From assembly GCA_950295325.1 (NCBI GenBank), contig OX485807.1, positions 2,296,501-2,360,500 of the forward strand: a stretch of 64,000 nt of DNA. The letters run 5' to 3'. The translations under genes and the position numbers were made by a program. Each line of letters opens with the position of its first letter. The first letter of the stretch is position 1. Source of the stretch: Polytrichum commune. Lineage: Eukaryota; Streptophyta; Polytrichopsida; Polytrichales; Polytrichaceae. Below, one piece after another: positions 37,215 to 62,862 of the stretch. The notes beneath the pieces are model-generated. The model ran no database searches. It worked only from the letters and a program-made list of their open reading frames with translations, and was not told the DNA's origin.

Positions 37215-39988
37215 AGTTCGAACAAAATTGGGTGAAGACAATGCTTTCACCAACCAAATTGGCTTGGGATGTTCCTCACCGTCACGGGAAGAGGATCAGC
37301 AGGGCCAACGTAATGCTCGTCCATTGCGAACTCTTCACAAACGTCTCCATTGCTAAAAACCATGTTGTCGGACTCGACAACCGTCAAACGACTTTGTGAC
37401 CAAAATCCTTGTGTTAAAATTGTACGGGTGTCACCACCAAGTGTCATTAGGGCCGAGCGAATGCGATCCCAATACGCAATCAAAGGTTCATGAGTATCTC
37501 TAACACGTCTAGTGATGTCCTCCTCACACAACTCTTTCCAATATTCAATGAATCCGGATATGCCTTTGATGATTTCCGGCCCATTCCTCATGGGGTCGGG
37601 TTTGCAAGGCTTTGGATCCCCATCCGGGAGCAAACATTTCCCATCATTGTCTTGACGCCATACAAGTATACCATCATCCGGGCCCCAATTAGGAGATGTG
37701 CACAAAAGCTTGAATTGCATGGCAAGGAGACCATCATCCCTTATATAGAATCGGAATTGTTGTGCTTTGGTATGCCCCACCAAACGGTCCCCTCCCTTCA
37801 ACATGTATGACTTGATGAAGGCCTTGAAATCTGGTACTTCCTCAATCATGTGCGGAATTACTGGCATATGGTCCAAATCCATATACGATTTCATAAGAAG
37901 AGGTATGGTTGGAAAATCTTCTTTATGCAACTTCATGCTCCACTGTCCGAATGATGCATCAATGTCGTCGTGTGTATGTCCCACCATCAAAAACGACACA
38001 AACACCTCCTTGAATATTCCTTTCGCCACGAGCAATGACCAAAAAAAAATACGTATCGACATTTGTTGTCTTTCGCGCAATTATTAAGTTGAACGTGAAG
38101 AGTTGGAGGCAATGGTTTTGCACAAATAGGTTCTCCCGGTGGTTCTGGCAATGACGACATACAAACCTCCTTCCCCGCAAACACTGCTTCGTAAAGGGGT
38201 GTCGTTCCACAACCATCAAAAAGTGCACGTGATGAATGTAACGGTGGTTTCTCCAGATCGCGCAAGAGTTTTGCAAATGAACCCACTGTGTGGTTAGCAT
38301 CGCCAGGGTAAAAATCCAACCCATAATGGACATACTTTACGTCTCCATGGCCGTGGGCAATCATCCCTGCGGAAAAAAACAAACGATGCTTGAACAGCAA
38401 CAATAACAACGACAACTCCAAACGGAGGTATGAAATTGGACATTTGGCAAACACACCCAATAAAATTTGAGAGAATTTGAATACATATTTGTGATTCAAT
38501 ACAAACCTGTGACAGATACGGGCAACTTGAAGAGACCATCCGTGGCCTTTATTTTGCGTGCATAACAAGGGCATGCGGTCTTGGCATGGTCCATTTTATC
38601 ATGGATGATTGTTAGAACCTCAGTAGGCCTCATTATGGATAGAGCACGGTTCTTGTAGTAATCTTGACGGTGAGCCTCTTGGTTGTTGACATGTTCAATA
38701 TATTTTGCTTGGTGTCTAGTGTGGGATTCGGTGCCTATGGGGTGGGCGTCTCGAAGACCTTTGTATTTTTCACACGTCGTACACCTAGCGAACTTGTCCC
38801 CAGGTCTCTTCAAAATGTATTCGACAAACTGTTGGTTTTTAATCACACTCAACTTGGACAAAGAAATGGGCCCACATCCCGCTATGCGACCCACTTCGTT
38901 GATGTCCGTTAATATGTTCTTCCATTTTGTACCCGTGGGCAACACCATTTGTACAACTTTCTTCCCTGACGACAATGTCCTCGTCTTGTGAGGCATTGCA
39001 TCGGCCAATGGGACTATGATGGTGGAGAGTGTTGCGGAGGCTTGGAGTGTAGCCTCCCCAGGTTTCTTTGTGCCCGAATTGCCATGAAATCGAGAGCGGC
39101 GACCCAACAATGAATATTTTTGAAACCTATAAAAGTCAGATTTTGACACGGCGTGGATGGTATACCACGCAGTACAACACACTTCCACATTCTCAAGTGT
39201 GACCACCTTATGCCCATGGGTGTCAATGTGGACATTTCTGTGGACCTCGAGTTTCTTTGCCGATCTCATACGGAAATCTGCAAACCACATCTCTTGACGT
39301 AGGGACTTAATTTTCTCCCGCGGGAAACATTGGCAATATTTCCTCTCGCAACAGTCCTTGGCGGACACAAGACGGATAGATTCGTCTCCCAATATACGAT
39401 CCCGTCGACGTTCCTTATCTCCACGAGGCACACGGTTAGAATCATATCTGCGTAGGCCTTTGCGAGGACGTATTTTGGCCAACAAAGCTAATTGCGTTTG
39501 CTTATGGCGGCGCTCATGGTCCAACAAACTTACTCCGTCATGGAGAACCCGACAAAGAGGCCATCGACGCAAGGAAAATCTCCATGTCACCGGGACGTCA
39601 AGCGGAAGCAAAGAATTCAAGATGCACACACCCACATCATCGGGACCAAGGGGGTTGGCATCCACACAATCACGGGGATCGGAGTTTCTACATCTGCCAT
39701 CTGCCACCAGGACACCAACATCGTTGAAAAGAACAACATCAAGGCCCACCCATTGCTCCCTACCGAAACCGGCACATAACGGAATGTCATCATTGTCATC
39801 CCCGGAACGTATAGATTGTTCGTGCGCTTCAAATGATTCGTGGGAGGATGCATCCACAAACCCACCCATGGCATTTGCCATGCCATGATTACCCGCCGAT
39901 GGCGAAGATAGTTCACAGTCACTATCGGAAGAGGAAGCTTTTGTGGATAACTCCAATGAACTATATCCAACGTGCATCGCCATCCAAC
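37215..39988 (-). CDS. DUF7869-like transposon-type gene, main part (decayed)
   Basis: A minus-strand gene. An exon from an AG acceptor at about 39988 to a donor at about 38508 encodes Ser/Asp-rich leader, CCERKYCQCFPREKIKSLR, a cysteine block (CTTCEKYKGLRD) and YYKNRALSIMRPTEVLTIIH, DKMDHAKTACP, ending PVSVTG. The next exon (from about 38367) encodes GMIAHGHGDVKYVHYGLDF, LHVQLNNCAKDNKCRYVF, then VGHTHDDIDASFG and a long tail to IPSQFGW. These blocks match proteins annotated with DUF7869, which occur in mobile contexts and have an RNase H-like layout; the catalytic role is inferred. A run of nine A on the plus strand near 38040 shifts the frame. The gene continues across the inserted element to 31868. 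Confidence 0.65.
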
Positions 39989-40431
39989 CTAAACAAACCA
40001 CCAATAAATGACCAACACAACAACCACCGCAATGCATACAAAAGCGGATACGAGATATGCCTACATATATGGCTAAAAAATCACAACCAACTCTCGCCAC
40101 ACCGTTGCGGGACCTCACATATGAAGACGAACGTGCGTTCGACAACAGCCCCATGACATGCAAATCGTACACGGGACTCAAACGTCCCTGCACAACGGAA
40201 CCCCATTCCGAAGGGCTTTGGGTCGAGTCGCTAATAAAACATCGGAAGGGTTGTCCACCACCAAAGGACAATACAAGCACATATATTTACGAACGCGCGG
40301 ACGAAAACATCAACCCAATATACAATAAAATCTAAATGGGACATATTATAAGAACATCTAAAATATACTTGCCACATTATCCACATGCAGTAAGCATCAT
40401 ATTTGAGGGGCGTGTATTTGATGGGCAAGTG

Positions 40432-41250
40432 TTTACGAACGATCGTTCGTTAGCTACAGCCGAAATTGAGGGCTTATGCACACAAACGATCGTTCGTAAG
40501 TTCCAGCCGAAACTTAGGGGCGGATGCATACGACCGATCATATGTATGTTACAGCCGTGACAGTGTTTGGCAAAAATGATTGGACACGTCCGAATAGAGA
40601 TATCTATAGCCACGTTACAGGGATACATGAAATCCAATATCCAGTGGAAAATGGCAATCGACATCTATCACTAAAATAATGATTGCATAGATACGAACGA
40701 GCGTTCGTATCTATCCTAAACATGGTGTAGTCCTCTACACATGCTTGTGTCAACAGGTCTGTTGGTGGATGCGTGGACGGTGGACCGGTGGTATTTACGA
40801 ACGTACGTTCGTAAATTTGGAAAACCTAATTCTTAGTAGACACAAATGGTAGTGCGAAATATGAATGCCCGTTCGTATTTAACTTCCATATTGTTAACGT
40901 GGCCAATGCAAGGAAGTGTATAAATTAAGGGATGTTTATGGATTCTTGAAAAATTATCCCAGTTGATATTTACGAACGTACTTTCGTAAATATCCCATCA
41001 TTAGATGTTCCGTTGGAGAAAACGGTTACATGGGAACTTATGCGCGTCTGGGTCTTGAAGGCAGATATACGAACGTACGTTCGTATATCTTCGACACAAT
41101 TTTTGCGCCTAGTTCTGTCTATAAGTAACTCAATGTCGAGTACGGTTGTGATCAACTTACGAACGCACGTTCGTAAACAACTCACATCACATGTATGTAC
41201 CTTTTGTACATGTGCTACCAACTCACGTTTACGAACGTGCATTCGTAAAC
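40432..41250. repeat. Family A palindrome cluster upstream of the DUF7869-like gene
   Basis: About eight to ten sites with arm TTTACGAACG, a 2-bp centre and the inverted arm. Clear ones are at 40432, 40691, 40794, 40969, 41063-41090 (28-bp perfect palindrome), 41157 and 41227. Degenerate ones are near 40481 and 40861. The centres include AT, AG, TA, CA and TG. They lie 5' of the minus-strand DUF7869-like gene. Confidence 0.85.
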
Positions 41251-41299: not shown

Positions 41300-41400
41300 A
41301 AGCTATCTTATGAGCGATGAGCAGTGAGCGGTGAGCGGTGAGCAGTGAGCAGTAACACATGAGCAATGAGCAATAACATATGAGCAATGATTCCAAATTT
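41300..41400. repeat. Degenerate GTGAGCA/ATGAGCA tandem repeat
   Basis: Seven-base units GTGAGCR and ATGAGCA repeat about ten times. Confidence 0.75.
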
Positions 41401-41499
41401 AGTAAAGACACACGGGTTTAGGGTACACAACCAAAATTTTGACAAATTAATTGCATATTTTCAATTGTAAATTGCCAATATTTTAAATGAAGCACAAGT

Positions 41500-42300
41500 G
41501 AAAGGGCCCTATTTCCATGGATCATTTAAAACACTTTCAATTCATTGCTGATTTTTATTATAATAATCCAAACCAATACATGTCATTTATTGACATCCTT
41601 ATACATGTAGTTACAACCAACACTTGCACAACTACTCACATTCCACAACACCAGCAAGTTCAAGTAGGTGCATAACCTCATTATACGTACATGTAGGTGC
41701 CATAATTGTGAGCCACTCAAACTGCTCACGGGTTGAATTAAGGCCCAGAATCTAGAAATGAAAGGAAATTAGATATTAGAAATAGTCAATATGTAGGTAA
41801 CTACTAGGTTTTGAGACATCCGCCTGTGGATGCGAGTTGTGTAAGAGACTGGTATTAGGTCTGTATCAACCCGGGTTCGAATCCGGTTGGTTACATTGAC
41901 TCGTGCTATCCCAAATTGAGCTAGTGATAAAGCTGGAATAATCTATAGGCGGATACCAAGAAGACGTTAGTACGCGGATGTGCGTAGAATCTTCTCAATT
42001 ATTTTTTATTTTTAGAAATTTGTTATTATTTATCCATGTCAATCAATCAAACCGCTCACGGTTGGGTCGTAGTCTAAATAGAAATGAAGTTACTGAATCA
42101 TTTGAAATACTTCCAGCCCATTGCAGATTTTTATTATAAAAATCCAAACCAAAACATGTCATATTTTGACATTCAAATATATGGTACTTAATAGACCATT
42201 TGCAATACTACTCACACTCTACAATACCAGCAAGTTCAAGTAGTCGCATGACCTCGTTATAGGTATATGTAGGTGCATGAATGAACTTGTCACTCTCGTA
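41500..42300. repeat. Imperfect duplication of the MULE gene 3' end around a SINE-like insert
   Basis: About 41530-41770 and 42095-42290 share TTTTTATTATAA.AATCCAAACCAA, CAGCAAGTTCAAGTAG and TATGTAGGTGC blocks. A second word, GCTCACGG, also recurs (about 41730 and 42055). Between them lies a segment with Pol III B box GGTTCGAATCC (41874-41884), a likely tRNA-derived SINE at about 41815-42010. Confidence 0.55.
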
Positions 42301-45300
42301 ATCCACCTTGCACAAAAATCTAAACACATAATAAAGATGTTTACAATACACCCATTTTCATTTCTTTCCCAATGCATGGGAGGACATTTTCGTGAAATCC
42401 AGGCATGTGCAATGCGGGATGTCGCCAATTGTGACATGATATATGATATCATGCTTGGAGACAATGTTGATTATCACTCCAAAGCCCGGATATGGAATGG
42501 CAGTGACCCCAACCACATAGTAACCCTCCATGAGTCCGGCACTCTCCCATTTGTTTTTGTGATCCGGTAGCGGTGCTGTTGGATTACGACGCACTGTCTT
42601 CCCAAACCTGAATGTAGGGTGGGCATCCGGGTTTCGTGGCATAGAAAAATGCGAGCGAGGGATGGGGAGAATTACAATTGTTGAAAGCCTACGACGAGGG
42701 GACAATGCCTCCCTCTGCTGTAGTTGAAATCCAACATCTTCAAGTGCCAAAACATCCTCTCTCAATAGATTGGTGCCTATCTTCACCGGCCACGTGTTGG
42801 GTACTATAGGCCAGTCCAACACATATTTCTTCTTACTGCCACTCACACAACGCTTGATGTCGTCAGGGCAAAACCAAAATTCATACTCCACATTGTTGGG
42901 AGATCGAAATTCCTTCCTGAGCCCTTTGTATGTTGGGGCAGGTGTGCCATGTTTCCCAGTCCCGATTTTAGCATTGCACATAGTCCCTGTAATGGCCTGC
43001 AGTGCCCAACATCGTTTGGCTGAGTTGGGTGGTAATCTTGCAATGTGCCAATTGGAAGCAAGATAATCAGTCTCTAACACGGATGTAGTATGAGCCACAC
43101 CATGAATTGCAGAACTCAACGATTCCTCTATGCGTTGACGAGTTGCTCGGGTGTTGGGACGAGGAATGGAATAGTTTACTTTGTCGAGTCGATGAGAGTC
43201 ACAATCAGCACCTGGTGGTAGGTTGAGTTTGCGTTTGGTGGAACCAAAGAGTTCTGACCCTTCCAATCCACAATTTCTAGTGTTGACGTCTTCTGCCCCT
43301 GGGTAAGACTTCATGGCATCAGCCAACATTTTTAGATCTCCACACCTGGCAGTTGCTTTGAGTTTCAAGGAGGCCGAATCAGGACCTTTACCATCAGACC
43401 CCCCTTTCAACCATGTCCAGTAATTTGCAATTTGCATGAAGGCACGGATCATGTTCTCCACTGTAGCTTCATATAAACAAGTCATCTTGTTGCCGGACTG
43501 TTGGAGCCATTTGTTGTGTACAGTCTCTGCAAGGTTGCATGTTGGCATTTCCGAACGCTCTTCTATTGTTATATCCTATGAACAACACACAAATACAAGG
43601 ATAAGACAAATATAAGATAGATTACATATCTAGGTTTGGGTCGTTCGACCCAAACTGCATACAAGGTTTGGGTCGAACGACCCAAACTGTTTGTTGTTTG
43701 TTGTGTACAGTCTCTGCAAGGTTGCATGTTGGCATTCCCGCACGCTCTTCTATTGTCATATCCTATGAACAACACAGAAAGACAAAGATAAGAAAAACAT
43801 AAGATATATTACATTGAATAATGAAGTTTGATATGTACTTACAAGTAGCATATAGCCACCCCATTGTTTGTAAAGAAAGTGCCAAAATCCCAACCACTCT
43901 GAAAGGCCAAGGATGCCTTCTTCGGAGGCAGCTCCAAATGACAACCACCAAGAACGAATCACATGGTACTTGGTCTCAGCGTCGTCCATTGTTTTCGCGT
44001 CTTTGTAATCCTTGTATATTTGTTTGTGTTGAAATTGCAAGGATGGTTTGATATACTTTTGGGTCACCTTATCCAAGCCTGCGGACCAATGGAAAAGACA
44101 TGTACGCTCACATGCAACCATGGGTAGACTTGGATCACCATCCCCGTAAATCGCCCTTACCGCATTCCAATTAGCTTGAGCACTATCAGCCATAAACCCT
44201 TTGAAGTTTACGTTTGGTACACCATTTTCTGCCATGACAGCATTCAAATTATCCCAAAAGAGAATTTGTGCTGCACCATCTTCAAATTGCATGTCACAGC
44301 ACACAATAGTCAACACTTTACAGTATCGACTGTCGTACACATGGCAAGCCATGGTCGTCCAGTCCTTCAAACGTTTGACATGGTCAAACATAATCCATGA
44401 ATTCTCCATATCCCCACCGACTTGCATCCTCTTCACAAGCTCCACACCACTACCTAGAAGGTCTACAGACATCTTGAAAACAAACACTTTGTCCTTTGAC
44501 TGCCCTGGGAACCAACTACCATGGACGAATTTGAAAGCAGAGTGGTCTTTGAGCGCCATAATACTATCCATAGTTCCCATTTCACTACGCAAAAAATACT
44601 TTGATCCAGATACAAAGTTACGACAATTTGGAGACGCAAGAGTGCTGAATTTGTCCATGACGACCTCTAGGGATGAACCAACCAAGTGATGGCCTTCGAC
44701 ATTTGCGGGAGATTTGAGAAGGTAATCGGCCAAGAATTGTTTGCTCGCCGCCATAACTATGGCTGAATTTTTTGCTGTGGGTGTTTTCAATACTTCATTT
44801 GCAACGCATTGGTATGCCATGTCCAATGATTCACGGCATGTGCCATTGGCCACATGGTGATCATGTACACCAAGATGAATGCAAGCCCTGGACATTCCAA
44901 CGGATGTGGAGTGAATGTATATGATTCGAGCATTACACAAAGCAATGCACACAGGTGTGGAACGACATACCTTACACTCGACAGTGGACTTAGTAGGGGG
45001 AACAACACCCACAGCAAATGGGATAGGAGTTGAACCGGCCCATTCAGTGTTGTTCCGGAGGCCCCCATTGCGATTTATGTAATCACAGTAGTCATTATGA
45101 CATTGGAGATGACCAGCACAAGTAGAGCGCCGGAAGGACAGTCCAAAGTCATTTTGGATATTCGTGGTTTTGGTGGTGCACCAAGGGTGACCGTCACACA
45201 TCTTGTCCAAGCCGTCCATTGAGCGACCATACGTACTTGGAGCTTTGAGTGCCACAGGAGGCAAGAGAAACAAAACATCACCATTAAAAGAAGATGGTAA

Positions 45301-45978
45301 GTACTTGACTTCACGAACATCTATACTGTCAAAATCAATGGATGCAAGATCGGACTTTGATCTTTTTCTTGATTTTGTCAGCTTCAAGGCATCAACCATA
45401 ATCAACCCTGTAGATGAAAGTGAAGGGTGTAGTGGAGGACGTTGAGAAGGTGAGATTTGGGGAACCACCTTCTTGTACATAAGACCGCAAGGGGATTTGG
45501 CTACATGTATAGGAAGTTGGGAAGGAGTAGAATGAACACTTCTAAATGGAAATGGCGATGTGTTTGAAAGATCAACAGATGCACAAATGTCATCTTTTGA
45601 ATCTGATAGCACAAACACACTATCATCAAGGGGTTCCACCTTAACAGGTGCGATAGAGGGAAGTTGAACTGTGGATGTACCGGATTCGTTTGTCAAAATG
45701 ACAGTTCAAGCTTGCATCTGAGACTCAGAAAGTCCTATCACCCTAAATGAACCAGGTCCTAAGATCCACATAAAACCAACATCAGTTCTATTTTTTGGAA
45801 CCAAAATCGTTTCATACACCTCTCCATCTGCAGAGTACATCTCATGCTCTAAATACATGGTTCCTATCTGGAGGTTGAATATCAAACTAAATAAATCCTT
45901 TGAAACACTCACATGACCATCACCTTGGAGTGGCAAGATGAAGGGAACAAAAGATCCATGAGCTCTAATGGTAGCCAT
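42208..45978 (-). CDS. MULE-like transposase with zinc ribbon and SWIM finger (two nonsense changes)
   Basis: A minus-strand gene with one intron (about 43842-43576). Exon 1 starts MATIRAHGSFVPF and has an in-frame TGA at 45708-45706. Then follow a Cys/His block (CAGHLQCHNDYCDYI, CKVCRSTPVC, CIHLGVHDHH) resembling WRKY/GCM-type zinc folds, and a DDE-type core: IVCCDMQFED, KGFMADSAQANWNAV and the C-x2-H element CLFHW. Exon 2 carries PTCNLAETVHNKWL and a SWIM finger (HCTCLDF ... YCKHLYYV). A second TGA at 42360-42358 splits the SWIM motif. Both TGAs could be CGA to TGA changes. It should cut and join transposon ends when intact. The promoter is shared with a divergent gene at 46501. Confidence 0.7.
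43634..43687. repeat. Family B palindrome pair in the MULE intron, between duplicated splice junctions
   Basis: Two 22-bp palindromes with arm GTTTGGGTCG start at 43634 and 43666, 32 bp apart, with a 10-bp spacer TGCATACAAG. They are flanked by a ~117-bp direct duplication (43511-43627 and 43698-43815) that includes the start of exon 2 and its acceptor. Confidence 0.85.
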
Positions 45979-46500
45979 AGAAAATCAAAAGAACATATGA
46001 ACAACACATCACAAAAATATGGGGTGAATATTGCTTTTGTATAGAATTGTGTGAAGAAATGAATGGAAATGAAAACGTGTGATACAATAATGGATGGAGA
46101 TGAAAGCGTGTGATATATAACATCTAATAATACAGAAGTGGACATAACACAATAATAGTTAGAGAATATTTACGAGCAAGATATACACAAAATGACATCA
46201 AATACTAAAAGTGTTGGTAGAAATTTAAAATATATATGTGTGGACTGACGTAGATGTAGAAAGAATTAAAATTGGTTGGAAAAATAAATTATTGATCATT
46301 ATGAATAGAACAAAATAGGTGTCACAAAATTTTGGCGGATATAACAAAAATAAACACATAATGACAAACGCGTCGAAATATCTCGTTCATTGAACGCCAA
46401 TTACAACATGTGATCGTAATATACGCCGGATTTTGTGAGATAGATACATTGGAAGAATAAATCATAGTACCTGATAGAAAACATATCATAGACACCAACG

Positions 46501-46779
46501 ATGGTGGACGATGTAGAGAGAACACCCGTGAGGCCGAAGAGAAGACGTACGAAAGCTTTGTATTTCACTTCCGAGAAAAAGAGGTTCAGACGTGTGAAAA
46601 AGAATAATGCAAATAAGGAAGGGAAAAGAGACTTGTTGAATACGGTAGAAGAAACTGTGAAGACACTGGATTTTGATGCGATGGAGGATGATGAAGGTGC
46701 AAAGAGCAAAGAAGATGTAGACTATCGTATATCAAAATCCGAATTGAAGACGGGTTCAAAGAAGACGACAAACAAAAAG
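46501..46779 (+). CDS. First exon of a divergent basic nuclear-type protein
   Basis: ATG at 46501 followed by VRPKRRRTKALYFTSEKKRF, an obvious basic nuclear-localisation-type stretch, then an acidic part (MEDDEGAKSKEDVD). It ends at a canonical GTAAGT donor after TNKK at 46779. It faces away from the MULE gene with about 520 bp between the two starts. The following exon is not certain; the ParB-like exon at 48461 is on the same strand and could be its continuation, which would put the palindrome arrays in an intron. Confidence 0.45.
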
Positions 46780-46799
46780 GTAAGTCAGTTCAACGTTCA

Positions 46800-47170
46800 C
46801 ATAATTTGATAGTGCATAAGTTGTAAGTTAGGACGGAGAACCTTATACGTTCACTCACATGTCATGTAGTAGCAATTTATAGAAGTTATAAATTGGAGAG
46901 AAGAAACCCTATACGTTAATGCACAACAGCACATGGTATATAACATAAATTTAGGAAGGCTAGAAGTCAGGAGGAGAACGCACAAGGTTTATAAGAGCAA
47001 CTTAGGGAGGCCAAAAGTTGGGAGCTAAAACCCTGTGCGTTAACGCATAGGGTTTGTAAGCGCAACTTAGGAAGGCCAAAGTTGGGAGGTAAAACCTTGT
47101 GCGTTAACGCACAAGGTTTGTAAGAGCAACTTAGGAAGGCCAAAAGTTGGGAGGTAAAACGATTAGGAAA
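46800..47170. repeat. ~64-bp tandem repeats with family C palindromes
   Basis: Units contain GCAACTTAGGAAGGCC, AAAGTTGGGAGGTAAAA and a palindrome. Full 22-bp palindromes are at 47031-47052 (arm CCCTGTGCGT, one mismatch in the right arm) and 47095-47116 (arm CCTTGTGCGT with the matching change in both arms). Their starts are 64 bp apart. Earlier units near 46840, 46900 and 46975 are degenerate. Confidence 0.8.
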
Positions 47171-47577
47171 GCCTAAAAGTAAAACAAATATCTATTGTAT
47201 GAATTTAAATCGATATTCAGAGCGTAGGAGCAAAAAAACTATTCAAAACGGGGTTAGAATGCACGAAATGAGAAATATGTCTACTCAAGTATTCATGCAA
47301 TACGTTATAGGAGCTAGAAAATGACACAAAATAGCATAATTTTTTTTTTGCCCCAAAACCCAAAATCTACGAGGTGGCCGAAAACAAGGAAATAGATAGA
47401 AGAATGAAAAAAGAAAATGATTTCAAACCAAAACAAAATATGAGAAGAATTTGTAGCTACGGAGATTTTGATAATATAGCATTTTTTATTTTTTTTTGGG
47501 ACCCCATTAGCATTTTTCCAGATTTTATAAGTTTTGGCAAATCTACCAATTCCATGTTTTCAAATTCATGTCTCGGC
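47171..47577. other. Gene-free stretch
   Basis: A/T-rich DNA. No gene supported. Confidence 0.35.
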
Positions 47578-47642
47578 CCTGTGCGTTAACGCACAGTGGC
47601 CTCAAAGTTGCCAGCGCAGACCCTGTGCGTTAACGTACAGGG
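47578..47642. repeat. Two family C palindromes, one inside a longer inverted repeat
   Basis: Sites with arm CCCTGTGCGT at 47578 and 47621. The second is embedded in a ~56-bp inverted repeat whose outer arms read AAAGTTGCCAGCG and CGCTGGCAACTTT. A TATAAA at 47718-47723 lies about 76 bp downstream. Confidence 0.8.
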
Positions 47643-47717
47643 TCTACGCTGGCAACTTTCTAGCGGCTATGCGGGGCCACGAAGAGCCACGCTAAATATG
47701 GCTCCAGGAACGAGTAG

Positions 47718-47723
47718 TATAAA
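47718..47723 (+). promoter_or_regulatory. TATA box downstream of a family C palindrome
   Basis: AGTATAAATTG is followed by a C/T-rich start-site-like tract at 47745-47765. Confidence 0.4.
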
Positions 47724-47879
47724 TTGCCACACCCCCAAAGCATTCAGTCTTTTTTTCTCTCATCTGTCGGACCTGAGATCATCGCTGCAAGCTCTCTCAT
47801 CTACATGTGCAGTACAAGGTTTGTTTGCATTTTCGTGATGACAGGGTAATTGCGCATAATCAGGCGTAAATTACGGACA

Positions 47880-48225
47880 GTTTAGGTCGTTCGACCCAAA
47901 CTGTGAGCGTGGTTTGGGTCGTTCGACCCAAACTGTTTGCCTACTTTGGGTCGAACGACCCAAACTATGAACATGGTTTGGGTCGAACGACCCAAACTGT
48001 CTGCCTCGTTTGGGTCATTCGACCCAAACTGTGAGCATGGTTTGGGTCGCTCGACCCAGACTGTCTGCCTAGTTTGGATCGAACGACCCAAACCACGCTC
48101 ACAGTTTGGGTCGTTCGACCCAAACCACACGCAGAAAGTTTGGGTCGTTCGACCCAAGCTGGCTGTAGGCGGTTTGGGTCGCTCGATCGAAACCGCGTGG
48201 ACAGTTTGGGTCGTTTGACCCAAAC
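47880..48225. repeat. Family B array: eleven 22-bp palindromes at 32-bp period
   Basis: Starts at 47880, 47912, 47944, 47976, 48008, 48040, 48072, 48104, 48138, 48172 and 48204. The spacing is 32 bp except for two of 34. The arm is GTTTGGGTCG, the 2-bp centre TT, AA or CT. Spacers are 10 bp (two of 12). Spacers 1, 3 and 5 are alike (TGTGAGCGTG type), spacers 2, 4 and 6 are alike (TGTCTGCCTA type), and spacer 7 (CACGCTCACA) is the exact reverse complement of spacer 1. The array lies 5' of the ParB-like gene at 48461. Confidence 0.95.
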
Positions 48226-48263
48226 CTCTCGCCCAACTTTGGTAGTCCTGTAGTCGGACACAC

Positions 48264-48291
48264 AGACCCTGTGCGTTAACGCACAGGGTCT
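48264..48291. repeat. Family C palindrome, 28-bp perfect
   Basis: The core CCCTGTGCGT plus inverse at 48267-48288 extends three more bases on each side (AGA / TCT). It ends 40 bp before a TATTTAAA. Confidence 0.9.
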
Positions 48292-48460: not shown

Positions 48461-50010
48461 ATGCAATTAAATCAAGATCGTCCATCTCAACAAGTTCATC
48501 ATCATCAGGACATGTCGTCAAATCTTCATAATAAGAAAAAAATAAAAATAAATGAATCCCTCGATGATTTTGACTCGGATGAAGATAATGATGGTGACAA
48601 TAAAACTTATCAAGAGAAAGTGTGGGAGTTTACGAACAAACGAAAGGTCAATTCCACTTCCACAATTTCCTCCATCCGTACTGGACCTAATGCTCGCTTG
48701 CGTGTACCCTTATGTCACATGGTTCCTATGCCGATTGTGCGTCCTGCTTTGAAGGGTAACATTACTAAATTGGAGGCTGATTTTTTAAATGGTTATCGTG
48801 ATGGTGACCGTGTGTTTTATATATCGGCCACCGATTCTAAGGGAAACTTTCAATTCGTGGATGATGAGGTTCGCGCATCTTGGAGCCCAAATTGGGCTCA
48901 AGCCAATGCCCTGTTTGAATCTCAATTGGATACAGATTTGTCATTGACGTCATACAAGAACAAGATGTTTTTTATATGGGATGGAAATCATAGATTTTTT
49001 GCTTGGAGAAATTATATTAACTGCGTATATACCGAAGATTATGAACGTCATGTCTTTGTAGATTCTATCATTTTGGCGCCCGAGTCTGACGACATTCCAA
49101 GTTTGTTGACTACTATGCATGACATCAACAAGTAATGTTCTTACCTATTTTTAGTTTATATTTTGTTTTCCAAATTATATCATCATGAATCTAATCAATT
49201 TAATATTTTTTTCAGGTCAACCGAAAATTCTCACGTATCCACCAATTTGGTGCATACTTTATATCGGATGCAAAGTATTGGCACCATGCCTTTGACTTCC
49301 TTCAGAAAGCAACTGGATCCAAAGAGTTATAAACGATGTGAAGAGAAGTCCGTCGAAACTTGGTATTCTTTTACACGACCAATTTTTTTGGATTACATGT
49401 ACAGTGTAAGTTCTTCTACCATTGCTAATATGTGCCTTTTGTTTATTCATCTTCATTTTATATTACATCTATATGTACTTATAAATATTGACTTTTGTTT
49501 GATTTTTCAGTAAGAACTTGCTGAGGCTAGTGATATTGCTCTCAACCAGTACAATGAAACTCATCCTCTTGAACGTATATCAGACGGAGTTTCAAAAGCA
49601 ATATCCGCAGCTGTCAACAAAAAACGTGCAATGTTATCTTCTAGTTTTACGAAACAACTAGCGATTGCCGACATCAACCTTACCTCTGCTTTCCCTGAAC
49701 AAGTTAAGCACCATTGGGGTTCATTTTCGGTGCCTGAAATGCTCCAAGGGAAACTTCATCATGTTGCTGTCAGTAATGTGGATGCAGAAATCAAAGTTGG
49801 ATGGCTCAAGCTTTGAAATGGCAACAGATTTGACAAAGATGTATTGCATTTCCCGAAATCGCCCCTCTCTGATTCTGCACTTGATGATTGGTTATCAAAG
49901 TCTACATATTGTATTCTTTCATCTCCTCTTCAGTTGCCTGTAGATGTGCCTACTCTCTCCGAGTATATCCAAACCTGGAAGTTTGCGGCTTTCAATTCAA
50001 TATTCTATCG
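48461..50010 (+). pseudogene. ParB/sulfiredoxin-like gene 2 (DGNHR motif), decayed and truncated
   Basis: Exon 1 (48461-49131) starts MQLNQDRPSQQ, has an acidic region, then VPLCHMVPMPIVRPALKGN, ITKLEADFLNGYRDGDRVF and MFFIWDGNHRFFAWRNYI. This order (Arg/Pro strand, helix, DGxHR followed by helix) matches the ParB/Srx N-terminal fold, whose known members bind or hydrolyse nucleotides and in ParB bind DNA. Exons 2 (49216-49405) and 3 (from 49511) follow with good GT-AG borders. Exon 3 opens with TAA and has TGA at 49813-49815. The frame then stays open to about 50010, where gypsy sequence begins, so the 3' end is lost. Function is inferred from the motif only. Upstream lie family B and C palindromes. 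Confidence 0.6.
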
Positions 50011-51746: not shown

Positions 51747-53621
51747 TGTGAGCCCAAAAGGGTGCCCACATTTAGTCTTAGACCCTTGAAACGTTAGTTG
51801 ATGCACTTTGAAGTAGCATGTTACTTCACAAAAATATAAAAAGAGTGAAATGTTAGTCTTAGAAGTACCATGTTGTAAGAGGCTAGGATGTGAGTTGTTA
51901 TTGTATTTTTACCTTCGGAAGGATTTGAGTGAATGAGGATAGGTAAGGAGAACTTGGATTGAGTAGTTAGTGAGTAGGCTAGTACAAATGGATGGAGACA
52001 ACCAAAGTGACTCAAGAGGCAAGTGCATTCGAATTGGGATGAATGGAGGATCACATGGAGCGCACAAGTGGACCACCTCATCATGGCCACTTAATGGGGA
52101 AGGCCCAAGGAAGAATGCAAGGTGGAGGATAAGCAAATTCTCAAAGCACCAATCAAATCACGAGTTAAGCATCGTGGTTTGAATTAAGTGGTGAGCGACG
52201 ATTTGGGAAAGTAAGGGGAGAAAGTTATGGCGGCGGAAAGCGAAGGAGGCTAAGTTTGGGTTGAAGCATCCCAAGTTTGGTAAAGTGTGGTAGGTAGAAA
52301 GCCAAGGCTAGTTAAATGTTCGAATTAGGATCCTTGTTGATCATTTGAGGGAGGAAGGCTTAGAAGATAGGATTGGCGCCTACTAAGTAGGAGGAAATCT
52401 CAAGGGCTTATCGTGAGCCTTGAGGGTGCTCACCCCCTCAAGCTTACTATATAATCCCTCATTCTTCCCTCACTCATCCTCTCTTTCCTTTGTGCTCCAA
52501 GGCACCCCACGAGTTATAAGTGTGGGTGTGGGAAGCCATATTGGAGCACATGTGTGTGCTTAGTTTTTAGTTTGAGAGCCAAGGCTTGTTAGCCTTGAAG
52601 AGGGCTTGACCTCTTGGTAGAATTAGTGTTGACGTGAAGGATTTTAAAGTTAATTTATGATTCCAATTTGTGGTACTTTAAGTTCATGTTTTGAATACAC
52701 GTGGTTGCAAGTTCCATGTTTAAGAGTTGAGCACTTGATGTTGTGATGAGTGCAAAAATATACTTGTGTGAATTAGTTAGTCTTAGTGAAGTTAGGAAAT
52801 TCTCTCTCCCCCTCTCCTCTCTAGGATTTTAGGATTTTAGGATTAGAGAAGAATTGTGTGATTAGAAAGGGGTTGTTAGTAGAATTAGGGAAATTAGGTA
52901 GGAAGATTAGTTAAGGGCTTGAATAATTAGTGAGGTAGTTGGGGATTACAACTACAAAGTTCTGGGTTCATGAAGGAGCCGGGTTTATGAAGGAGCTGGG
53001 TTTGTTTAGTTAGAAAGTAAAGAGCTGGGTTTATGAAGGACCTGGGTTTGTTTAGTTAGAAGCTAAGGAGCTGGGTTCATGAAGGAGCTGGGTTTGTTTA
53101 GTTAGAAGCTAAGGAGCTGGGTTCATGAAGGAGCTGGGTTTATGAAGGAGCTGGGTTTGTTTAGTTAGAAGCTAAGAAGCTGGGTTCATGAAGGAGCTGG
53201 GTTTATGAAGGAGCTAGGTTTATGTAATTAGAAAGTAAAGAGATGGGTTCATGAAGGAGCTTAGTAGATAGCCTACCTAATTAGCTCATAGACAAGTAGT
53301 TAGTTACATTATGCTAGTTAGTGTTATGTGTGGCTTTCACAAGTAAATGTATTTGAGATTGACTATAGAGAATAGTGTTTTTTTAACACTTGCATCCTCT
53401 CTTTAAAAATAAACCACGTGCACAACTTAATGGAGAATGTGGAGCACTCTCGCGATGGCAAGACAAAGGAAGCAAAGACCAAAGTTAAATCCAAGACCAC
53501 TTGAAGGGTGAACCTTGCACTATGGACTCATCCAAGTCCAAATCCAATACCGCGGAGGAATGTGAGCCCAAACCCACTACTCGGACTACGGACGCTTAAG
53601 GGTGGGGGGTTTGGCCTCACA
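51747..53621 (+). mobile_element. Gypsy 3' LTR (1875 bp)
   Basis: It starts TGTGAGCCC about 60 bp after the integrase stop and ends GGCCTCACA at 53621, so the ends are 6-bp inverted repeats TGTGAG/CTCACA with TG...CA. The duplicated receptor kinase sequence begins at the very next base (53622). A tandem repeat lies inside (about 52960-53270). The 5' LTR is absent from the window. Confidence 0.75.
52960..53270. repeat. Tandem repeat inside the gypsy LTR
   Basis: Units of GAAGGAGCTGGGTT, TTTAGTTAGAAGCTAAGG and variants recur about six to eight times. Confidence 0.85.
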
Positions 53622-56499: not shown

Positions 56500-57268
56500 T
56501 CAAATCAATTTATTGAGTTTGGCGAGCCTCATGATGCTCTTGAATACATTATCGCGGGGGCTTAGCGCCGCATTGCCGAAGGGGTTGGACCTAACAAAAA
56601 ATGGTATGCTACCGGCGTGGAGCACGAGCCTTCTAAGGTAGGGGGCTAGCCTATCGACCAAAAATGTGTCTTGCCTATCGCCGGTCCAAGTGTCCGGGAA
56701 GATGACGTTGCCCGGGGGGTTCAAGACGCTCTTGGTGGGGCTGTCGTCGATGAGGACGGTGTTCTCTGGAGTCGGCCACCACCCGTGCGGCGTCCCTTGC
56801 AGACGGGGGACGCCTCGCCAGAGTCTCGAGCGGAGGACCTTGAGGAACTGTTGTCCTCCGCCCCGACCGCCAAACTTGGGCACCGGTTGACCTTTCTCGT
56901 CGAGCAGCTCGTCGCAGTCCTCTTGGCCGAGGACGAGGCAAGGGCTCGGGAGATCGCGGAACAAGAAGTGCACGATGGGCTCGGTGTTCTCCATGACCAT
57001 GGAGCTCCACATAATGACGTGAGCGAACTCGACCACCTCGCGAAGGAAGTCACGCAAGCCGGGACGGGCGCGGACAGCCTTGCGGTTAATGAGGGTGTCG
57101 AGCTCGCCGTCGTAGTCCCTTTCGTCGGGGTGACGGAAGGGACGCGTGGGGACCCTTGGGATGTGTTGGGTGTGACACAACACCCCGTTGAGGTCAAAAA
57201 CGATGAAAGGTTTGTTCCGGGTGGGAGGTCCACTGGTAGAGGGGTTGCGACCAATCTCCGGGGGGTCC
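56500..57268 (-). CDS. FCP1-like HAD phosphatase domain protein
   Basis: From an AG acceptor at about 57269 the frame reads DPPEIGRNPSTSGPPTRNKP, then FIVFDLNGVLC, the HAD motif I. Then ARPGLRDFLREVVEFAHVIM and WSSMVMEN (motif II region), and NTVLIDDSPTKSVLNP with the motif III/IV acidic pair, ending AKLNKLI at 56500. The layout matches FCP1/SCP/TIM50-type phosphatase domains. Motif I is DLN rather than DxD, so catalysis is uncertain although Asp1 is present. An upstream exon is expected but not identified. Family A palindromes lie just upstream. Confidence 0.6.
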
Positions 57269-57400
57269 TGTGATGAACAACGCGACTAGTTTAATTCTAT
57301 GATCCAATAATGAAATTTTGCGTAGAAAATGAAGACGGTGCATTATGGGGAAAGACGAGGAAGTGAGGAGAGTGCAAGGAAAATGTGCTCAAGGGCACAC

Positions 57401-57555
57401 TTGCGAACGAGCGTTCGTGAATGAAGGCTGCGGGGGCGGTGCGCATCATTTACGAGCGCTCGTTCGTGAGCGCGGCTACACGTACATTAATGAGCGGTCA
57501 TTCGCGAATGAGGTGGACAGTGGGTCGCAGCCTTTCACGAACGAGCGTTCGCGAA
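57401..57555. repeat. Family A palindromes upstream of the FCP1-like gene
   Basis: Sites at 57401, 57449 and 57534 plus a degenerate one near 57489. Arms read TTGCGAACG, TTTACGAGCG and TTCACGAACG. Centres are AG, CT and AG. Confidence 0.8.
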
Positions 57556-57717
57556 TGAGGTGGGTATGCAAGAATGAACATAATCTCATCAACATATACA
57601 ACATACGAGAAGGGGTCGAGGGCAGAGAATTTGAAGCAACGCGATGCAGATAACATAGGCTCATATATTAATCCGTTGAATATTTACATTTCTCACGTGA
57701 TAGTCTATCACATTTTC

Positions 57718-60700
57718 CTAAGGCAAAATGATGCCGTGTCCTACAAAACTGTTCGGCCCTAAGGGGGACCGCTGAAGAGGGCTCTCGCAAGGCCACTGGA
57801 TGTCGATGAAGAGAAAAACATCGCGATGTTAGAGAGGTTACGAACGCGCGTTCGTAAAAAAATGGTATTCTCAGAGGAGAGTTACCTCGTCATCGGGGGG
57901 AGGGGTAGCGGCGCTGGACCGAGCAGCAGGTCCCTCCTCAACGATTAACGAACGCGCGTTCGTAACCTCCACAGCTGCAGCCGCCTCTGTCTCCATGGCC
58001 TCTGCCTCACGCTCCGGTTGAGAGGCCTGTGTCGCCTGGATGCGCAGCGCGTCTTCTTCCTCGGCGCCCAGGTCGAGCGCGTCCATCCTGACATCCTCCA
58101 TCTACGCCGCATGGGTTTCTTCCACGTCCATCCCATGCACCCCTGGTGCGTCATTGGGGCTCCCCTGCGTGTCCTCCACAATGACCATGTCAGTGTGTCG
58201 CGCAGAGTCATCGCCATGTCTGTCTACTACCCTGGGGACGACGGTGAAAGACGATGCATCGGTGTATGAGGGCAGTCCTACCCTTGAAGGGGGAGGGGTG
58301 AGGACTGGAGGACCTGAAGATTCACGAACGCGCGTTCGTAAATCCTCGTCCTCCTGGATGGCCGCCGCCACAGCATCGTGGGAGGTGGTCGAGGGAACCT
58401 CTGGTGGCGGAGGAGTGCCAACAGGCGTGGGGTGGGGCGCCTGCTGGCGGGAAGGCCCTCCGGTGAACATGCCCGGTGGAGGGGATTGGGAGGGGTATCC
58501 TCCAGTGAAGGGGTAGGCCGGCTGGGGGGGCGCCGAGAAGCTCTGCATACGCTGGAGCATGGCGAGGATGGCGTCCGTCTTCTCGTTCGACTGCCTCAGC
58601 TCCTCCTGAATTGCGAACATTTTCTTGGCATTCTCCTCTGCCGCCTTCGCCATGTCCTCCTTCATCTTTTGCTCGAGCTTGGCGTTAAGCTCGGCGACGG
58701 ACAACGCCTCCTCTTTGACCCTCTTGTTTTTGTCAAAGTCTACCCCCAGCTCGACCATGATCTCCATGTCGCCCTCGTCCTCATCGGAGACCTCGATGAT
58801 TGCCCCCGGAGGCAGCTCCACGTAGGGGGTCTTCTTCATCCTCCGCCTCGTGTTGCGGTAGTGGTCCAACGTCGGTTGGGACCGTTGGTCCAGAAGGTCG
58901 AGGTTCTCCATCTTGGGAACCACGATCGGCCTGGGCGACACGGATGTTGAGCATCCCCCGGGAGTGCCGAATGCCTCTGCTCCAGACGTTCTCGCGGGGA
59001 GGACATCTTGGGTTGTCCCCGCCGACGACCCCGTGTATCCACCCGGAGTCCCTTGCACGTCGGATGGATTTCCCGACGGCGCCAAAATGCGGAGAGGAGT
59101 GACGTCCAAGGATCGGAGGATCGCCTCGACGTTGTAGGAGGGCGCGGGCTCGTCGTCGTCCGTCTCCATGGCGGGCATGCCTTCGTCGACGGGCATGTTG
59201 ATGTCCGTCCTCGGGAGGGACATGTCCTCCAGGTCCATCGTGGAGGCCTTCGCCCTGTGCACGTGGAAGTCCTCCTCGTCGATGGCTTCAATGAAGCTGT
59301 TGACGACCAGCCCCAGCATCTGAGATTCAAGCAAATACGTTAGAAAATACGAACGTGCGTTCGTAAACATCAACGACGAGAAACAATGTCATCAAACCCA
59401 AGACAAGTTGAGGTGAACTTTACGAACGAGCGTTCGTAAATATTAGTTGGAGAGCTTACCATCGCAGCGTACATGAACTTGCTGCCGCCACAAACGTTGT
59501 ACACGGTCTCTCCGCTTATTGCCACGCTCTGCAAAACGGAGACGTAGAACTCCAACCTGAGTTCCATCGCCGGGAAGACAGTGTACAAGGTCTCCTGCAG
59601 CAGATCCTTGGGAGGGGGATGGGGGATGTTGTAGATCTTCTTGAACGTAGTGTTCGCCTTGACAGGGGCTCGCCCATTCCGCAGCGCGTTGTACGTCAAG
59701 AAGACGAGGCTGACCGCCCCCACCTGTTTGTTCCCCCTGGCCTCGTTGATGGCCACGATCCCTTCCGTCTTGGCGGGCACGTAAGTGCTGTGGAAGATGC
59801 TGTACTCAAATTTGATCGACTTCTCGTACAGGTCGACTACAGCAGAGAGCTTCTCCTGCTCGACTATCCACAGCCAAACGTGAGGCTCCCTCATGTCCGG
59901 AGACTTGTGCTCCTTGAACTTGGCCATGAAGGGGTCGTAGAAAGGTATGTCCTTCCCCCCCTGCCTCGACGCACCGGGGATCCCCCTGAAATCGATCAGG
60001 GCAAATGGGCACCCCCGTCGATCCTCCCTCACCTCGGCCCTGCTCATGGTCCGGTCCCACTTGGAAAATGTCACCCTCTCCACTCCTTTTGTCAACAGAC
60101 AAAATCTGGCCACTCCTTCGAATGTGGCCAACCTCTTCCGCGTCAAAAAGCTTCTGTATTGCTCCACCTCCTGGGGATCCGTCTCGGTTTTCTTTGTCCT
60201 CTTGTTCCCCTTCTGCTTCAAAATGGAGGCGTGCTCCTTGACAAGACAACGCATTGAGGGTCCGGAGATGTTGTAGTCGACCTTGAACATCTTCCAGCTG
60301 GCCCAATTAATGTCCCCGTCGGCTAGGATGAGTGCGTACTCTGGTATTAGGGCGCTCAACTCCCTCATTGCAGCAGTCTTCAGCTTGCGGTGTTCGCACC
60401 ATTCCTTGATGGAATACGTGCCGGGCTTGTGTCTTGGCCTCTTCAAAAATATCTTCGGGTATGGGATGGTTCTTCCCACAGTGTTCCCAAGAAGATGCAC
60501 CGCGCACCTCTGCAACTCGGACTCTGTTAACCCTTGAAGGGACCTGAAGAACTCCCTCAGTAGTGGAGGGGCCTCCCCGGTCTTCTCCGCGCTGTACTTC
60601 TCCTCGGTGTCGGGGTTGACCAGATCGCCCGAGCTGTGCGCATCAAAAAATTGTGTCCACAACTCCCAAGTGTCCCTGTTGCAACAGATGAGGCGGAGCT

Positions 60701-62202
60701 CACCCTTGAGCTCCAGGACAGACTTGGTTGTTGTAGACTTCATGTCGATGGAGGAGAACTTGTCCACCATCGCGTCGCAGAATGCCTGCAGCAAGAAAAA
60801 CATCAGTAACGCACAAAATACGAACGCACGTTCGTAAGTTTGAATGTCAAAGAACTTGAAAATTTGAATGTCAAAGATATTTACGAACGTTCGTTCGTAA
60901 ACTCACCTTCCATTGTGGAGACGGCGTCTTCGCGTTCTCCCTTTCTTTAGGGGGGCACCCGTGGGCGACCCAGACGTCCCTTGCAGCCACTATGTTGGCT
61001 GCCCACGACGCCTCGAAGGCCTTGATTTTGTTGCCGGAGTTGAGGAAGGTGGATATCTTCCGCAGCTTGTCCCAATCGTCCGACCACACCAAGAACGCCT
61101 TCCAGTAGCGCAAGTCCTCCTTCAGCTCATGCTGGAAGTTGTCGTCCTTGAGAATTATTTGGGACGCCTCCAAGCTGTGTTGGCCGTCTATGATCCAGAA
61201 CTCTCCATTCTGGATCCGTGGCCAGTCCTTCTCCGTCGGACGGGATGTCAGCCCCTTCGGCATGACGCAGACGGTCTGCCTGTCCCACTTGACGTTGTTC
61301 ATTAGATTATTTATCTGCCACTTCACACCACCGCTTTCGCGAGAGCGAACCACCCATTTGTTGGGGGACATCTCGCACTTGAAGCAGTCCACGTTGAATG
61401 TGAAGTGGCGTCCCATGGGCCAGCAATCCTTCGAGTAGTTGTTGAAGTCTCGAAGGATCCTCGTGGCCTTCACAGCGTCAGGGTTCTCACCCTTTTTCAA
61501 GGGGGTGGGCATTACGACAGGCGAGGTCACCTCTGCGGTCTCCGTTACTCCCGATTTCTCCATCTCCTCCCTTGTCCTCTTCGATGGCGTGGAGTGTCTA
61601 CTGGGGCCCTCCGTCGCCCTGCTAGCGGAAGGCACAGGCCTGGGTGCACTTCTAGATCCTCCTGCCCCTGATGTGGATGGTTTCCTGGGGCTCTTCTTCT
61701 TCTTGTTTGCCTCAGTGACCACACTGTTGTATTTGGAGATGTTCAATGCCAGGGCGTTCAATTTCCTTGCAGTCCAGTATGGGCTCAACGCATATTTGGA
61801 GAAGAGGCCGTCCAGGTCGAAGTGCTTGGCATCTTCCGCTACGTTATTGGTGGCGTATTGGTAGGAGAAGGTATTTTTCTGAAAATGTAACAAGAGGTTG
61901 ATATGATCCTTCTTGTTCTTCATGTCCAGAATTACATACTCCCCCTGGGCCTCTATGGACTCTATCTCCCACGTCTTCATTTGAACCCACTGTTCGGGCT
62001 GGTCCGGTCTTGTCTCCAGCTCGTAGGTGAAGCGCATGCAGAAGAGGCCGTCCCCGATCTTCTCTGGCAGTGCCGTCCACTCCCCCATGAAGTCTTCCTT
62101 GGGGACATAGTTGTCGTTGCCGTTATCGTCTAACACCGACTCTGGGAGGCCATCGACCTTCACCGCGAACATCTCAATGGCGCTTCTGCTTGATCTTGCC
62201 AT
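57718..62202 (-). CDS. ParB/sulfiredoxin-like gene 1 (DGQHS motif), four exons
   Basis: Exons 62202-60907, 60785-59460, 59319-57886 and 57795-57718, all phase 0 with GT-AG borders, predict about 1,377 residues. Exon 1 has a basic Ser-rich linker (~residues 190-260), then KWVVRSRESGGVKW, INNLMNNVKWDRQTVCVMP and NGEFWIIDGQHSLEASQIIL, the order of a ParB/Srx-like fold. Exon 2 (442 codons) has no motif I recognise. Exon 3 is acidic, with a coiled coil (LSVAELNAKLEQKMKEDMAK) and Pro-rich parts, and one in-frame TAG at 58104-58102. Each intron holds family A palindromes and two more lie in exon 3. DNA or nucleotide binding is inferred from the fold only. Start: first ATG after an AG at 62203, or further upstream if exon 1 is spliced. 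Confidence 0.6.
57838..57857. repeat. Family A palindrome in intron 3 of ParB-like gene 1
   Basis: TTACGAACG, centre CG, inverted arm. Confidence 0.85.
57948..57963. repeat. Family A palindrome inside coding exon 3
   Basis: Core ACGAACG, centre CG, inverted core. It is read in frame as VTNARSLI within an acidic region. Confidence 0.8.
58321..58342. repeat. Family A palindrome inside coding exon 3
   Basis: One mismatch in the outer arm, centre CG. Read in frame as DLRTRVRES. Confidence 0.8.
59347..59440. repeat. Two family A palindromes in intron 2 of ParB-like gene 1
   Basis: Sites at 59347-59367 (centre TG) and 59419-59440 (centre AG). They lie about 27 bp from the acceptor and 20 bp from the donor of the 140-bp intron. 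Confidence 0.9.
60817..60901. repeat. Two family A palindromes in intron 1 of ParB-like gene 1
   Basis: Sites at 60817-60838 (centre CA) and 60880-60901 (centre TT). The second begins five bases after the exon 1 donor GTGAGT, sharing its last base. Confidence 0.9.
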
Positions 62203-62230
62203 CTGCAACAGAATATAAACAATTAGTGAC

Positions 62231-62862
62231 TTTACGAACGAACGTTCGTAAGTGACATGCATATCCCACAGACTACGCAGTGTTAATGCGTCTTTGCAAT
62301 TGATGTAATTATATTTACGAACGTTCGCTCGTAAATGAGGGGTTGCAAGATCATATAAATTTTTAGTATTGAGTTTACGAACGAGCGTTCGTAAAAGATA
62401 TGAAGATCAAAGAGACTACTCGTCATGAATGTGTTTGTAATATATTTGGTTATTTTTACGAACGATCGTTCGTAAAAGATATAGGTTTTATAGGTTTGGA
62501 TTCATTTACGAACGTGCGTTCGTAAGTATGTCCATTTGGTCTATCTTTTCGGATATTTGGTTGATTTATCTTTCGTAAGTACATGTGATTTGTCTTATTG
62601 GTGTTCGCAAAATTGTATTTGTTCTTTAGATATTCATAGAGGTTCATATTTAAGTTAAGGTTCTTTCTGAGTGATATTTTGAGTATATTTACGAACGTGC
62701 GTTCGTAAATATAGATCATCTCAAAGAACGTGGAGTGCGTATTTACGAACGCACGTTCGTAAATGGAGGTTCGGTATGCAGTGTATGTCCATTTACGAAC
62801 GAGCGTTCGTAAATGGAGGTGGGTATGCAGTGTATGTCCATTTACGAACGAGCGTTCGTATA
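62231..62862. repeat. Family A palindrome cluster upstream of ParB-like gene 1
   Basis: Nine sites starting at 62231, 62314, 62374, 62455, 62505, 62688, 62742, 62792 and 62841. Arm TTTACGAACG; centres AA, TT, AG, AT, TG, TG, CA, AG, AG. The last three are about 50 bp apart in a short tandem duplication (GGAGGT...GTATGCAGTGTATG). Confidence 0.95.

Follow-up and report, generated by a model that had tools for sequence, protein, structure and literature searches.

We analysed a 64,000-nucleotide stretch of the Polytrichum commune genome (contig OX485807.1, positions 2,296,501 to 2,360,500; hereafter the window), which carries an array of eleven 22-bp palindromes, here named family A, at positions 47880 to 48225. 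The best explanation as a whole is that this array is probably a recognition-site cluster for a transposon-encoded DNA-binding protein of ParB type. Each sampled clade of proteins with the motif DGQHS has its own 22-bp palindrome, located upstream of and inside its gene, and the A palindrome belongs to the clade DGQHS-A. One subfamily resembling Mutator-like elements (MULE-like), that of the window, bears A as a 32-bp array besides older palindromes of another family, B. Palindromes are placed mostly in non-coding DNA and close to splice sites. The array looks like one node of an apparent transposon self-recognition system with ParB-type proteins.

The family A array and its distribution

The family A palindrome is GTTTGGGTCG-NN-CGACCCAAAC, and a pattern scan of the window allowing up to three mismatches gave 13 matches. 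Dinucleotide shuffles of the window gave none (maximum count 0, n = 100). The matches form two groups:

47880..48225, no strand: family A array, 11 palindromes at steps of 32 or 34 bp (pattern scan)
43634..43687, no strand: two further exact family A palindromes, at 43634 and 43666, 32 bp apart, in the intron-like gap of gene X

Sites in the array start at 47880, 47912, 47944, 47976, 48008, 48040, 48072, 48104, 48138, 48172, and 48204; three are exact, seven have one mismatch, and one has two. The steps are, in order, seven of 32 bp, then 34, 34, and 32 bp. Spacers 1, 3, and 5 are similar to one another, as are spacers 2, 4, and 6, and spacer 7 (48094-48103, CACGCTCACA) matches spacer 1 (47902-47911, TGTGAGCGTG) exactly when reverse-complemented. 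Tandem Repeats Finder (TRF) detects the array with units of 32 and 64 bp. The array stands between gene X (42361-45978), which is inverted, and a gene we call ParB1 (48461 on), with 236 bp from the array end at 48225 to the ATG at 48461. A preliminary description, made by a model from the letters of the window, had reported this layout, and its account of the array was borne out: all eleven 22-bp palindromes with their 2-bp centres lie where it placed them, and the 32-bp steps with two of 34 bp, the alternating spacers in a 64-bp unit, the inversion of spacer 1 in spacer 7, and the 236 bp to a gene with a ParB motif all agree with our measurements. It did not mention the pair at 43634 and 43666.

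Between 41000 and 54000 there are 42 inverted repeats, the 25 longest of which all involve palindrome regions. The A pair in gene X is flanked by a 118-bp direct repeat (92%; 43510-43627 and 43697-43814) in which an exon of gene X starts; this is a local duplication that encloses the palindromes.

Genome-wide (407.8 Mb in 64 contigs, seven of them large), exact A palindromes number 9,231, and the same pattern read backwards has no match. The even dispersal that the preliminary description named as its contrary case was not seen. The first 100 A places listed, all on contig C1, fall into seven clusters in 1.7 Mb, and five arbitrary 10-kb control regions contain no A site at up to three mismatches.

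Palindrome type and protein clade

The palindrome of a second clade, DGQHS-C, is family C, TTTACGAACG-NN-CGTTCGTAAA. Protein searches of the genome scored only part of the candidates, with 89 matches listed for DGQHS-A and 92 scored for DGQHS-C. Ten genes per type were picked stepwise down the match lists, with palindromes ignored, and read over 951 bp upstream and 301 bp at the exon end. The ten DGQHS-A genes held 115 A sites and no C site, and the ten DGQHS-C genes held 108 C sites and no A site; palindromes of families B (CCCTGTGCGTTAACGCACAGGG) and D (GGTGTCTCGG-NN-CCGAGACACC) were absent from the sampled stretches of both sets. A sites stood upstream in 10/10 DGQHS-A genes and at the end of exon 1 or in intron 1 in nine, while 7 to 12 C sites, with no constant spacing, stood upstream in 10/10 DGQHS-C relatives. 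Three A-type elements read at length share the gene order DUF7869 gene, array, DGQHS-A gene, NIF phosphatase gene.

Homologs in public collections showed palindromes as well. These homologs are predicted reading frames, many running past exon 1, and their palindromes were read by back-translation. Family C is spelled in the tails of 10 of the 27 DGQHS homologs from the first search (up to one mismatch), and a family C variant with one base altered per arm occurs in five of the 27, all within a 43%-identical group. Among more distant homologs (the P0028 set), 19 of 43 proteins contain the A palindrome, at 27 sites with up to one mismatch; as a control, 30 random palindromes gave three sites in total across 123 proteins. 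Of the other 24 proteins in the set, at least 10 are without the exon end and four were assigned to related arms. A tree was built from 53 proteins, 45 of them labelled (columns at least 60% filled, tails removed). On it, eight palindrome labels required 8 changes, against a minimum of 7 and 23.3 for shuffled labels, none of which (0/200) was as low. Types C and C2 each make up one side of a branch.

Several observations weigh against the best explanation. Types A, A2, and A3 are not single clades on the tree, which carries a warning that its main groups are joined by long branches; six A-clade proteins (P0029, P0084, P0087, P0096, P0100, and P0106) have short tails without a palindrome; and one A-type gene (L039) has no A site at the end of exon 1. 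Palindrome and protein gene are also physically linked, the sites being in introns of that same gene, so part of the match between type and clade is accounted for by common descent. Both arms remain matched while the centre and spacers vary, and locus L013 differs from L015 and L016 in the rest of intron 1 as well; this matching of arms amid diverged centres, spacers, and intron sequence points to something beyond descent alone. Copy number varies from 3 to 17 among the A-bearing stretches upstream of ParB1 relatives, as passive tandem amplification of functionless sequence might produce, but that explanation is hardly credible given arms that stay matched across arrays with unrelated spacers and the exclusive pairing of palindrome with protein clade.

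The window itself contains 29 C sites at up to five mismatches, 10 at 40124-41249 and 19 at 57400-62862, arranged around the following genes:

60907..62202, minus strand: exon 1 of the DGQHS-C protein, motif DGQHS, a relative of DGQHS-A with its predicted ParB fold
62231..62862, no strand: family C array upstream of DGQHS-C, nine sites with up to three mismatches (pattern scan)
60817..60901, no strand: a pair of C sites inside intron 1 of DGQHS-C, one lying 5 nt past the 5' splice site and the other before the 3' splice site
59346..59440, no strand: two C sites in intron 2 of DGQHS-C, near both splice sites
57400..58342, no strand: six further C sites, located upstream of the NIF gene and within or close to the final coding part, which is of low complexity
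56503..57276, minus strand: NIF/CTD small phosphatase-like gene of the C element (Pfam PF03031, E 8.8e-13, over 56503-57183)
37250..40280, minus strand: DUF7869 gene (Pfam PF25273, E 1.5e-23, over 37250-38080), with C sites at its upstream end (40124-41249)

Two of these sites, at 57945 and 58321, fall within an open reading frame, contrary to the mostly non-coding placement. A relative of the NIF gene, 42-43% identical, occurs in the A elements L013, L015, and L016. Of the 92 scored DGQHS-C matches, nine tied at the top score and 22 were at a rounded 100% protein identity (the window copy, 60874-62262, included), and these near-identical copies occur on all seven large contigs, which points to a very recent transposition burst of the C-type family. 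Judged by eye, DGQHS-C exon 2 resembled a DNA methyltransferase, but Pfam lent this no support and it was not used.

In the window DGQHS-C gene, introns 1 and 2 each carry a pair of sites, close to the 5' and the 3' splice site, an arrangement that would suit a role at the RNA level, with hairpins or cross-intron pairing acting in splicing or small RNA production. We consider this highly improbable, since arrays also stand upstream of genes, and the substitutions in mutated A sites show only a weak bias towards changes that preserve pairing (24 vs 15 transitions, a count in which overlapping loci are double-counted and CpG decay is included). The intron sites bear on a further alternative. TnpA of En/Spm is encoded by its element, binds arrayed short subterminal repeats, and is linked to methylation, and the palindromes might similarly be read by the element transposase for synapsis. 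The arrays are family-specific and lie inside transposons, and gene X is MULE-like by eye. We nevertheless regard this as unlikely: sites stand in introns beside splice sites, family A is common to elements that differ in their candidate transposase (gene X as against the DUF7869 elements), and palindrome type tracks the DGQHS clade. TnpA sites are short and at element ends, whereas here they occur in introns and upstream regions too; an element-encoded protein with arrayed sites, along with a link to methylation that is here only proposed, is what the two systems share.

For the DGQHS-A protein, the predicted fold is that of ParB (ParB N-terminal/sulfiredoxin fold). As for a helix-turn-helix domain that would read the palindrome, model confidence is mostly low in residues 404-452 of the DGQHS protein, where exon 1 ends. 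A viral fold library gave weak matches, several named ParB-like, the best of which (E 4.5e-4) is an uncharacterised protein. By sequence, Pfam and NCBIfam gave only weak matches for protein set A1 (best DUF6551, in 8/23 members, E 0.012), and the PDB gave nothing credible for protein sets A1 and A2 or gene X. No DGQHS relative was found in viral contigs (75 pattern-matched stretches, none confirmed), which also lacked any exact A or C palindrome, or in bacterial and archaeal genomes (70 pattern-matched stretches, none confirmed), and tblastn against phages gave no match for exon 2 or P0022.

Other results count against the best explanation or leave the link of ParB1 to the ParB fold weak. ParB proteins have the CTP-binding motif GERRxxA, from which the DGQHS motif (DGQHS[VL]EA in alignments) departs, so CTP-driven spreading may be absent. 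When ParB1 was compared with the DGQHS profile (hhalign), the match covered 22 columns around DG[NQ]H, with E 0.083 and a probability of 0.7 on a scale of 0-100. The AlphaFold2 (AF2) model of ParB1 is poor, with a predicted local distance difference test score (pLDDT) of 43.9. In addition, no Pfam family was above the cut-off for the window ParB1 protein.

ParB1 relatives and the spacing of the arrays

The ParB1 search gave 152 genome matches, some being two pieces of one gene, and upstream stretches were read for 40 relatives, with A sites in 18 and B sites in 29. Presence varied with identity to the window protein. At 84% or more, A occurred in 14/15 and B in 13/15; at 74-83%, B occurred in 13/13 and A in 4/13, with the nine A-less copies at 74-82%. 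At 55-64%, A occurred in 0/4 and B in 3/4, and at 40-41% neither was found (0/8), while family D was present in 5/8 (L052, L053, L055, L057, and L059). These groupings indicate that the ParB1 family likewise has group-specific palindromes, B and D. Three of the eight copies in the 40% clade, which are without any of the four palindromes, and a 91% copy (L082) without A or B do not fit such a pattern. Family D also occurs in L011:93-1065, at about 139-bp steps.

Because A is restricted by identity group while B is wider, A appears to have been added in one ParB1 subfamily. The simplest reading is capture of sites from the other element, A being the site of DGQHS-A throughout that clade. We put the chance that the A sites of the MULE-like subfamily were captured at about even. 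A variant, compatible with the first part of the best explanation, is that ParB1 of this subfamily evolved to bind A beside or instead of B, with nothing captured. In favour of such a switch, the A array adjoins ParB1 and is missing from the B-only sister group, and among the 53 ParB1 homologs drawn from the protein collection there is one, P0046, whose coding part is immediately preceded by an A palindrome. We find it doubtful, as the identical palindrome is the site of the whole DGQHS-A clade and it would be a coincidence for these 20 bases to have arisen twice independently. The preliminary description had tied the palindromes to ParB-like genes and had pointed to the adjacent gene. The tie stands for DGQHS-A, with A upstream in all ten sampled genes and a predicted ParB fold, but not for the adjacent ParB1 as sole partner, as only 18/40 sampled ParB1 copies have an A array and the ParB kinship of this gene is a 22-column motif match.

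Among ParB1 copies, 111/137 steps between A sites are 32 bp, and exact 32-bp A pairs number 924 genome-wide, with at least three unrelated spacer types among those listed; on these grounds the 32-bp step may be favoured. Steps between A sites are 32, 33, 39, 43, 45-48, 50, and 66 bp in DGQHS-A genes and 57, 64, and 78 bp in other A arrays, and C steps in DGQHS-C genes range from 42 to 84 bp and longer. The 10.5-bp phase statistics gave resultants of 0.38, 0.24, and 0.45, from copies that are related. Since the same palindrome stands at many other steps, helical phasing seems dispensable for the system, and strict phasing was rejected because step values are array-specific. The 32-bp phasing proposed earlier is therefore retained for the ParB1 steps and the 924 pairs but is not general. 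These 32-bp counts also speak for a helically phased filament, or a partition or iteron site, serving the adjacent ParB1 protein. We give this very little probability in view of the other step lengths and the 22/40 sampled ParB1 copies without A, and nothing in support of the iteron (replication) idea turned up in this analysis.

The MULE-like element of the window comprises the following features:

42361..45978, minus strand: gene X, a MULE-like transposase candidate (labelled by eye from a SWIM-like C-terminus, without Pfam support)
46501..46806, plus strand: open reading frame of a small basic protein, first exon, followed by the B/A palindrome region
46907..48289, no strand: family B palindromes, five with up to two mismatches (47031, 47095, 47577, 47621, and 48267) and a degenerate one at 46907
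48461..49813, plus strand: ParB1-type gene, motif DGNHR, exons about 48461-49132, 49216-49405, and 49514-49813

No Pfam family matched the 42361-43548 part of gene X; for 43759-45696, Pfam gave only ResB (E 0.71), and no PDB relative was found. The exon at 46501..46806 may be the first of the ParB1 gene. The window copy of ParB1 seems to be degenerate, judging by an in-frame TAA at 49511 and by gypsy sequence from about 50 kb. Copies of gene X in L009 and L018 are 92-94% identical. L018, on contig C1, is a copy of the element that is 95-96% identical over 41339-47160, with six A palindromes in the gene X gap, 12 more before the fetched stretch ends (11 in the window), and 20 B sites (up to four mismatches), mostly at 64-65-bp steps. 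Element copies conserve their layout and vary in palindrome number.

The make-up of the window as a whole is eukaryotic, with genes split by GT-AG introns (by eye), several transposon genes, and a pol of Ty3/gypsy type that includes integrase and RNase H domains. A repeat at 51747-53621, resembling a long terminal repeat (LTR) by its place behind the gypsy pol, is also found in L009, L010, L011, and L012 (96-98% identical), that is, in four of ten fetched A-bearing regions, and in L011 it lies within the A array itself. Two more palindromes, 34547-34570 and 35022-35045 (arms GGCGCTGTCC and GGACTTCCAT), recur in L010, L011, and L020, fetched loci that include one of the five control regions.

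Comparison with known systems and proposed function

VANC motifs of Arabidopsis VANDAL transposable elements are dense in introns, intergenic regions, and terminal non-coding regions, and differ between related families; their arrays are gained and lost via tandem repeats, and a motif is shared with an unrelated transposable element (PMC5735166). The arrays described here are similar in that a transposon-encoded protein is paired with family-specific motif arrays in the non-coding DNA of its element, the arrays vary by tandem repeats, and a motif is common to unrelated elements. They differ in that VANC motifs are 8-9 bp, non-palindromic, and in one orientation, against 22-bp palindromes here, and VANC has DUF1985/DUF287, against a predicted ParB fold. 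Neither DUF1985 nor DUF287 had a Pfam match at E <= 1 in 23 members of set A1 or 22 of set A2, which places the proteins outside VANC by sequence. A VANC-like way of working is proposed as likely.

Like ParB-parS of bacterial chromosome and plasmid partition, the system combines a predicted ParB N-terminal fold with palindromic sites near the gene; unlike it, the 22-bp sites are clade-specific, there are many arrays per genome, the motif is DGQHS, and the setting is a eukaryotic transposon. VirB of Shigella is a ParB-related anti-silencer that acts from upstream sites (PMC10770331), a precedent for a ParB-related protein opposing silencing; it differs in that it is bacterial, acts against H-NS, and stands outside transposon systems. 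Among titles and abstract openings, we found no literature on ParB-based transposons in eukaryotes or on plant systems of ParB and palindromes, which is no proof of absence.

The array is, in our view, very likely a platform of cognate sites for a ParB-type protein encoded by a transposon. A symmetric protein dimer would bind each palindrome through 10-bp half sites, leaving the 2-bp centre free, and would load onto non-coding transposon DNA, where ParB-like spreading would perhaps keep the DNA unsilenced and the element genes expressed. These proposed steps lean on PMC10398659 and on VirB (PMC10770331). Anti-silencing as the outcome falls somewhat short of an even chance. The MULE-like subfamily may have captured A sites to exploit the protein of the other element, or ParB1 may have changed specificity, and the NIF phosphatase would, speculatively, fit interference with RNA polymerase II. 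The fullest version, in which several transposon families of one genome each have a ParB-fold protein that reads its own 10-2-10 palindrome, marks non-coding DNA, and shields that DNA against silencing, and in which a MULE-like subfamily pirated the address of another as a 32-bp array, is tentative and has perhaps one chance in three.

If true, eukaryotic transposons would have taken over ParB-type loading, known in bacterial chromosome segregation, as a tool addressed by sequence, and one genome would contain several distinct pairs of protein and site. These pairs would provide a natural collection of specific DNA addresses, each with its matching reader. The system would also be a second instance of VANC-like transposon self-recognition, with an unrelated protein family, and a testable example of one transposon exploiting the address of another.
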